A DNA stretch of 15,628 nucleotides from positions 1-15,628 of the forward strand of contig JAADIO010000015.1 of the NCBI GenBank assembly GCA_013151235.1, in the 5' to 3' direction. This document shows positions 11,789 to 13,074 of this stretch, one piece after another. Position numbers and translations under genes: made by a program. A model generated the notes under the pieces. The model was not told the DNA's origin. It ran no database searches and was given only the letters and a program-made list of their open reading frames with translations. This stretch comes from Deltaproteobacteria bacterium. GTDB taxonomy: Bacteria > CG2-30-53-67. How positions within the stretch are numbered: the first letter of the stretch is position 1; each line of letters opens with the position of its first letter.

Positions 11789-12166
11789 TTACTTGATTTC
11801 CACGGTTGCACCGGTCGCTTCGAGTTTTTCCTTCAACTCGTCCGCCTCTTCCTTGGTGACACCTTCCTTGACCGCCTTGGGTGCCCCTTCGACCAGCTCT
11901 TTGGCCTCTTTCAGGCCCAGCCCGGTAATGGCGCGCACTTCCTTGATAACCTGGATCTTCTTCTCGCCGAAGCTCGCCAGGATGACATCAAAAGCCGTTT
12001 TCTCTTCCGCGGCCTCCGCTCCGGGGACGGCCCCAACCGCAGCCACGGCCACCGGCGCCGCTGCGGAGACACCGAACTTCTCTTCGATCTCCTTGACCAG
12101 GTCGGAGATCTCCAGCATCGTTGCACTTTCAATAAAGCTCATCACATCTTCTTTGGTTACCGCCAT
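11789..12166 (-). CDS. rplL: 50S ribosomal protein L7/L12
   Basis: L7/L12 forms the multimeric stalk that recruits and stimulates translational GTPases such as EF-G and EF-Tu. The 125 residues fit the family. An N-terminal dimerisation region ([20 protein letters not shown]) is followed by a flexible Ala/Val/Pro hinge at about 38-55 and a C-terminal domain with [20 protein letters not shown]. The start is ATG at 12166-12164, with GGAGG about 8 nt upstream. Longer in-frame readings to 12334 run into a repeat element and are not real. The rplJ-rplL spacer is unusually long because of an inserted palindromic element at 12239-12399. An attenuator-like hairpin follows the TAA stop. Confidence 0.97.
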
Positions 12167-12231
12167 GATCATATCCTCCAAAATTGTTTCCGGCCGGACA
12201 GCCGACATCATCTTTGATTTTTTTTTACTTG

Positions 12232-12406
12232 TTACTTGATGGTCTCGTAAAAAGTCACGAAGCCCTTCGACAGGCTCAGGGCGAACGGTGTAAGTTATTG
12301 ATATTCCGTTCGTGTGGTTCGGCAAGCTCACCATGCTCGGAAGCCTGTCGAACCATGAACGGAATCCGGAACCGGAAAACGACTTTTTACGACTTCATCT
12401 TACTTG
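12232..12406. mobile_element. MITE-like palindromic element with 7-bp flanking repeat, between rplJ and rplL
   Basis: The element proper is about 12239-12399. TTACTTG occurs directly on both sides (12232-12238 and 12400-12406), as expected of a target-site duplication, with a further tandem copy at 12225-12231. The ends form a 19-bp imperfect inverted repeat with 16 matches (12238-12256 against 12381-12399); its inner TCGTAAAAAGTC is perfect. Inside are two palindromes, one at 12263-12288 starting CCCTTCGACAGGCTCAGGG and a longer one at 12303-12365 whose outer arms are ATTCCGTTC and GAACGGAAT. The 11-mer TTCGACAGGCT is present at 12266-12276 and inverted at 12342-12352. No transposase is encoded. 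Similar CTTCGACAGGCTCAGG palindromes are dispersed in many bacterial genomes (from memory). Confidence 0.75.
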
Positions 12407-12437
12407 CAAGACAGCCTTTTTGCCGGGCCGTTGTATG

Positions 12438-12956
12438 TTATGCTGCTTTTTGATCTTTTACAGCATTCAACACACCCGCCAGATCCCTGATCGGTGCAGC
12501 GAGCACCGTGGCAAAACCGGTCACCGGGGCCTGCAGAACCCGCAGGAACATGCCGAGCAGCTCGTCCCGTGACGGGAGCAGAGCAATCCGCTTAATTTCA
12601 TCCCGGCTCAGAAGGTTCCCATCCATGGTTCCCGCCAGGATCTCCAGCTTCTTGAAATCCTTGAGTGCATTGTTTAAAATCTTCGCAGGCGCCACGACAT
12701 CATCGTAGCTCAAGGCAATGGCGGTCGGTCCCGAGAAATGATCCCGGAGGGACTCCAGAGAGGTCCCTTCGGATGCAATCCTGGCCAGATTGTTCTTAAT
12801 GACCCGATACTCCACCGAGACGTCCCGAAGCCTTCTGCGAAGATCGGTCATCTCGGCAACCGTCATTCCACGATAGCCCGTCAAAATACCGATCCTGGCT
12901 TTTGAAAACTTTTCCCGAACCCGGGTTACGACTTCTTCTTTTTCCGTTCGATTCAA
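12438..12956 (-). CDS. rplJ: 50S ribosomal protein L10
   Basis: L10 anchors the L7/L12 dimers to the 23S rRNA stalk base. In many bacteria the L10-L12 complex also represses its own mRNA by binding a leader. I start it at TTG 12956-12954 (MNRTEKEEVVTRVREKF), because AAAGGAGG (12965-12972) lies 8 nt upstream and family members begin this way. This gives 172 residues. A GTG in frame at 12989 would add 11 residues and place that motif inside the coding region. The rRNA-binding N-terminal domain contains YRGMTV and EYRVIKNNLA. The C-terminus is helical (MFLRVLQAPVTGFATVLAAP), as expected for L12 docking. An L10-leader-like structure precedes it at 13075-13145. Confidence 0.95.
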   Translation of the reverse strand: MNRTEKEEVVTRVREKFSKARIGILTGYRGMTVAEMTDLRRRLRDVSVEYRVIKNNLARIASEGTSLESLRDHFSGPTAIALSYDDVVAPAKILNNALKDFKKLEILAGTMDGNLLSRDEIKRIALLPSRDELLGMFLRVLQAPVTGFATVLAAPIRDLAGVLNAVKDQKAA

Positions 12957-12964
12957 CGATTCTT

Positions 12965-12972
12965 CCTCCTTT
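12965..12972 (-). promoter_or_regulatory. Ribosome binding site that fixes the TTG start of rplJ
   Basis: AAAGGAGG on the minus strand, 8 nt before TTG at 12956-12954, is the best Shine-Dalgarno match in this leader and supports the shorter L10. Confidence 0.8.
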
Positions 12973-13074
12973 CCTCTTAATCTGTTCACAGACCGATCTT
13001 AATGATGCGATCTATATGCCTGTGCATCAGTCAGAGGACAGAACCGGATTCCGCGCATTACAGCGAAGCTGCTT

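Follow-up and report, generated by a model that had tools for sequence, protein, structure and literature searches.

Non-autonomous DNA transposons (MITEs) of bacteria, such as MITEAba12, the Coxiella QMITEs and the Correia elements, are short and non-coding, carry terminal inverted repeats, are flanked by target duplications, and occur, mostly between genes, in copy numbers from tens to hundreds, with no transposase of their own. Among insertion sequences (ISs), ISDol1 represents a desulfobacterial group with 6–7-bp duplications. ISDol1 has been named as a subgroup of ISNCY (PMC8147514). The Correia elements of Neisseria are about 155 bp long and may lie within transcripts, and cleavage of transcribed copies by RNase III at the terminal repeats has been reported (PMC10969869, PMC2649163).

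Here, we analyzed a 15,628-nt stretch of DNA from a Deltaproteobacteria bacterium (the window), in which a palindromic element separates the ribosomal protein genes rplJ and rplL. The element resembles the above MITEs in these general features and differs from the named ones in its ends, in the length of its duplication and in its probable mobilising transposase. Its sequence is unrelated to that of the Correia elements, and its putative mobilising IS agrees with the ISDol1 group in duplication length. No report of its end sequences was found in a literature search, and the MITE family is a new one of an already known sort. We consider it very probable that the element is a MITE mobilised in trans by a DDE transposase group related to IS1182, and that it is a tolerated passenger between rplJ and rplL. 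The main reading of the initial annotation, a MITE-like insertion between the L10 and L12 genes, was borne out by the copies, the duplications and the corresponding site in a sister species.

Structure and boundaries of the element

The stop codon of rplJ and the start codon of rplL are 271 nt apart (12167–12437), and most of this spacer is occupied by the element, which runs GATGGTCTCGTAAAAAGTC...GACTTTTTACGACTTCATC (Table 1). The terminal repeats, of 19 nt each, are complementary at 16 of 19 positions, and the repeat search gave inner palindrome arms at 12315–12328/12342–12355, 12303–12314/12354–12365 and 12266–12276/12342–12352. The reading frames across the element are chance ones only, indicating no coding capacity. 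Direct reading and the repeat search thereby reproduced the terminal repeat, the inner palindromes and the lack of coding capacity that had been described initially. When the end motif GATGNNNTCGTAAAAAGTC was searched with up to three mismatches, the only matches in the window were the two ends of the element (expected, 0.16).

Table 1. Features of the rplJ–rplL region of the window and of the orthologous spacer in the sister species
Feature	Position	Strand	Basis or remark
rplL (ribosomal protein L7/L12)	11789–12166	−	PF00542/PF16320
Probable rplL ribosome-binding site, GGAGG	12175–12179	−	Sequence; unpaired in centroid fold of spacer with element
Extra tandem TTACTTG, beyond the duplication proper; motif single in sister species	12225–12231	.	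Spacer comparison, repeat search
Target-site duplication copy 1, TTACTT	12232–12237	.	Flank comparison, repeat search
MITE, 162 bp, GATG...CATC	12238–12399	− (strand of rplJ–rplL transcript)	End counts, aligned copies, copies with target-site duplication
Terminal inverted repeat GATGGTCTCGTAAAAAGTC	12238–12256	+	Repeat search, motif match
Inner palindrome (long hairpin), differs among copies	12303–12365	.	Repeat search, fold, copy alignment
Terminal inverted repeat GATGAAGTCGTAAAAAGTC	12381–12399	−	Repeat search, motif match
Target-site duplication copy 2, TTACTT	12400–12405	.	Flank comparison, repeat search
ACGGCCCGGCAAAAAGGCTGTC, 19/22 identical to rplJ-proximal end of the sister's different MITE in the orthologous spacer	12410–12431	−	Spacer comparison
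rplJ (ribosomal protein L10)	12438–12989	−	PF00466
Different MITE of the sister species, ends ACGGCnCAGTAAAAAG	G001:C222, L071 1365–1480		In rplJ–rplL spacer

The palindromic insertion and its direct duplication had been recognized before, with bounds of 12239–12399 (about 161 bp) and a 7-bp duplication, TTACTTG. Both lengths had to be corrected, the element to 162 bp (12238–12399) and the duplication to the 6 bp TTACTT. The motif TTACTTG is present three times (12225–12231, 12232–12238 and 12400–12406), and its seventh letter, G, opens the element on the left side, whereas on the right it belongs to the host. The boundary was fixed at 6 bp because other copies in the same genome have 6-bp duplications directly outside GATG...CATC. 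Subtracting the element and one repeat (162 + 6 nt) from the spacer leaves 103 nt, the length estimated earlier.

This duplication length was a property of the family. Among 31 complete copies with readable flanks in the window's own genome, 23 had a perfect 6-bp duplication and four a perfect 7-bp one, compared with means of 1.05 and 0.18, respectively, when the flanks were paired at random. Duplications of 6 bp were found at 8 of 12 copies in the genome of a sister species (shuffled mean about 1), and the other genomes gave 41/96 for 6 bp and 10/96 for 7 bp (shuffled means about 1). The duplicated sequences are A/T-rich, typically AAnnTT.

Copies in the own genome

The own genome (2.62 Mb, 73 contigs) gave 54 blastn matches to the element, and the end motif, with at most two mismatches, occurred 93 times forward and 84 times in reverse, compared with one and two occurrences of a reversed-pattern control. 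These are the many full-length copies, each flanked by a different duplication, for which a BLASTN search had been proposed. In an alignment of 18 complete copies, identity over aligned columns ranged from 72 to 99% with a median of 90%, and the interiors were modular, with blocks gained or lost in the middle. The nearest copy to the element of the window was 99% identical across 154 aligned columns.

By crude ORF calling, 34 of 35 classified copies lay outside predicted ORFs and one inside. For the 29 copies with both neighbours called by the same crude procedure, 14 lay between co-directional genes, eight between convergent and seven between divergent ones. The position between rplJ and rplL is therefore typical and not exceptional, as co-directional gaps are the commonest class. 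As a side observation in 65 copies with an exact duplication, the MITE ends supply stop codons, TGA at the junction T|GATG and TAA in TCG-TAA, by which two of the three frames are closed off. Fifteen long frames ended at the junction TGA, and for eight of them the rejoined empty site stopped at the same codon, which places these insertions exactly at a native stop codon.

The rplJ–rplL spacer in related genomes

In a sister species of the same genus (G001), whose L10 is 83% identical to that of the window, the rplJ–rplL spacer is 200 nt long and lacks the element; one CAAGTAA stands in place of the element and the three motif copies seen in the window. A different palindromic repeat directly adjoins this CAAGTAA site; it belongs to a MITE family with ACGGCnCAGTAAAAAG ends (the related type), and each of the six genomes in the taxonomic family contained relatives of it. 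The proposed empty site was thus found in part, as a relative with a single motif, but not as a pristine site, since another MITE adjoins it. In genomes of other genera (G002–G004), the spacers are 84–111 nt long without the element, which is absent from this spacer in all four related genomes compared.

The stretch at 12410–12431 matches the second MITE of the sister species at 19 of 22 positions, a level reached by none of 20,000 shuffled spacers, and the spacers of other genera matched at 11–13. From this resemblance, the stretch may be the remnant of an older MITE insertion in the common ancestor. It may instead be a native hairpin, because the stretch forms a small hairpin where other genera have hairpin-like sequence.

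Two minor observations concern annotation and assembly. The rplL frame is open upstream into the MITE, up to an ATG at 12334 (11789–12334, minus strand), so the start of rplL may be set wrongly by automatic annotation. Many contigs of the sister genome (L215–L219, L221, L223 and L233) start 130–140 bp from a MITE end, as near-identical copies broke the assembly.

A candidate mobilising insertion sequence

A PF01609 profile search led to a transposase-bearing IS of 1937 bp in the sister genome (G001:C17). Its transposase of about 605 aa has the domains DUF772, DDE_Tnp_1 and DDE_Tnp_1_6, and its ends, GATGAACTCGTAACAAGTC and GATGGCTTCGTAAGAAGTC, are each one mismatch from the MITE end motif. The sister genome also has a 153-bp MITE subfamily of its own, whose left end is exactly GATGGCTTCGTAAGAAGTC and whose copies are flanked by 6-bp duplications, ATTATT for example; at the flanks of the IS itself, a single copy in this genome, no target-site duplication was found. 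The best NCBIfam match of the transposase was the IS1182 family (NF033551), which shares DUF772 and DDE_Tnp_1_6 with it and was matched over nearly the full length of the model at 159 bits. However, the curated cut-off is 270 bits, which neither this score nor those of relatives (116 and 190 bits) reach, and we call the group IS1182-related.

Relatives of this transposase were sought in a sample of 386 genomes. One (G377) was 61% identical over 447 residues, with ends GATGACTTCGCAAAAAGTC / GACGGCATCGCAAAAAGTA. Another (G142, 40% identical) was carried by three near-identical IS copies with ends GACGGGGCGGCAAAAAG and duplications AGCTTT, AAATCTA and ATAAATT, and a third (G126, 36%) by an IS with ends GATTCCGGCGCAAAAA and duplication AAACATT. 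The ends of the homologous ISs in G142 and G126 are all of the GA-G...G(T/C)AAAAA type, and these four full copies have A/T-rich duplications of 6–7 bp. A relative on a Microvirga plasmid (38.8%) has GACGGGGCGGTAAAAAGT at both ends. Since conserved ends and 6–7-bp duplications both agree, the transposase group matches the MITE in both respects. Separately, the transposase alignment shows a single in-frame TAG in each G142 copy (L279, L285 and L287), either a shared nonsense mutation or recoding.

In the own genome, no transposase of this group was detected at E 1e-20, so the copies there are probably stranded and immobile in their host. Long end pairs in genome-contig loci were considered as an autonomous element and rejected, as the largest ORFs between them were ordinary chromosomal genes. 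Unpaired ends in the own genome were also rejected, since for the most part they enclosed truncated MITE sequence and lay beside ORFs that look like ordinary genes. An all-against-all ORF comparison gave no obviously recurrent transposase, the NF033594 (ISNCY_2) profile gave no match, rve (PF00665) was found in neither the own nor the sister genome, and other PF01609 loci (L267, L268 and L270–L272) were without MITE-type ends. In viral contigs bearing the end motif, no transposase-sized pair with good ends was present, and a search of viral contigs for the G001-type transposase found no relative.

Taken together, the element is short and non-coding with terminal repeats, has copies at unrelated sites with 6-bp (sometimes 7-bp) duplications, is lacking from the site in a relative and has ends in common with an autonomous element. 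We infer from sequence that a transposase of the G001 type moved the copy between rplJ and rplL. The 19-bp terminal inverted repeats GATGNNNTCGTAAAAAGTC would be the sole functional parts for mobility and would be recognized in trans by the DDE transposase of the IS group with the same ends. The transposase would join them to an A/T-rich target cut with a stagger of 6 bp, sometimes 7 bp, and repair of this cut would produce the TTACTT duplication.

Possible effect on the rplJ–rplL transcript and alternative explanations

The transcribed strand of the element was predicted to fold at −64.5 kcal/mol (z −5.4), a strong fold which the inverted repeats demand, as in any MITE. The hairpin follows the rplJ stop by 38 nt and precedes the rplL start by about 70 nt; it does not cover the rplL ribosome-binding site, which has no pairing partner in the centroid fold of the whole spacer. 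A terminator scan of the transcript strand gave one weak terminator-like site in the element, such sites being no rarer in shuffles, and no strong terminator was added. Within the transcript, the element would most likely be a tolerated passenger, and a large functional weight in the L10–L12 operon is a priori unlikely. Processing of the element-bearing transcript by RNase III is conceivable by analogy with Correia elements.

It is unlikely, in our estimate, that the hairpin has been co-opted to alter the L10:L12 ratio, either as a cleavage site for RNase III or a different RNase or as a partial terminator, as Correia elements do to their transcripts. The strong fold, the RNase III cleavage known for transcribed Correia elements (PMC10969869, PMC2649163) and the presence of another hairpin element in the sister's rplJ–rplL spacer would suit such a role, whereas any MITE would form a hairpin through its inverted repeats, the centroid fold leaves the rplL ribosome-binding site free, the sole terminator-like site on the transcript strand is weak and such sites are no rarer in shuffles, co-directional gaps are the commonest insertion class, and other genera have short spacers without the element. 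More doubtful still is the idea that MITEs have repeatedly landed in the rplJ–rplL spacer of this genus (with a different family in each of the two sister species, one perhaps lying upon a remnant of the other) and that their transcribed hairpins serve as processing sites setting the L12:L10 ratio.

Two other origins have hardly any probability. A resident regulatory RNA, palindromic by chance, would be at home in the regulated ribosomal-protein operon of L10, but was refuted by dozens of full-length copies that are scattered over unrelated sites and individually duplicated their targets, and by the same spacer without the element in four related genomes; there was also no Rfam match at the element. 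A REP/REPIN element mobilised by a REP-associated tyrosine transposase, the initial annotation's example of a mobilising enzyme, would likewise be palindromic, intergenic and present in many copies, but REPIN/RAYT elements have a Y1 transposase and no target duplication, whereas here the 6–7-bp duplications are clean, the 19-bp terminal repeats are common to a DDE insertion sequence, and the transposase with matching ends is IS1182-related.

Distribution and significance of the family

Scanning species genomes for the exact end motif gave at least 116 stretches. Among the matches listed, most were from MAGs labelled Deltaproteobacteria or Desulfobacter-, Desulfobulb- or Syntrophaceae, and a few were labelled otherwise; the search set held only eight genomes of the window's own phylum. 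Judged by these motif matches, the same ends are present across many Desulfobacterota MAGs. A widespread MITE family of Desulfobacterota-like bacteria is now defined by its ends and its 6–7-bp duplication, and with a probable mobilising transposase group named, it becomes feasible to annotate such repeats and to test whether they move. The copy between rplJ and rplL also offers a natural test of how far the essential L10–L12 operon tolerates a structured insert between its two genes.

The inner module CCCTTCGACAGGCTCAGGGCGAACG (window 12264–12288) was found exactly in 26 viral-contig stretches, a palindrome spread far outside this MITE family.
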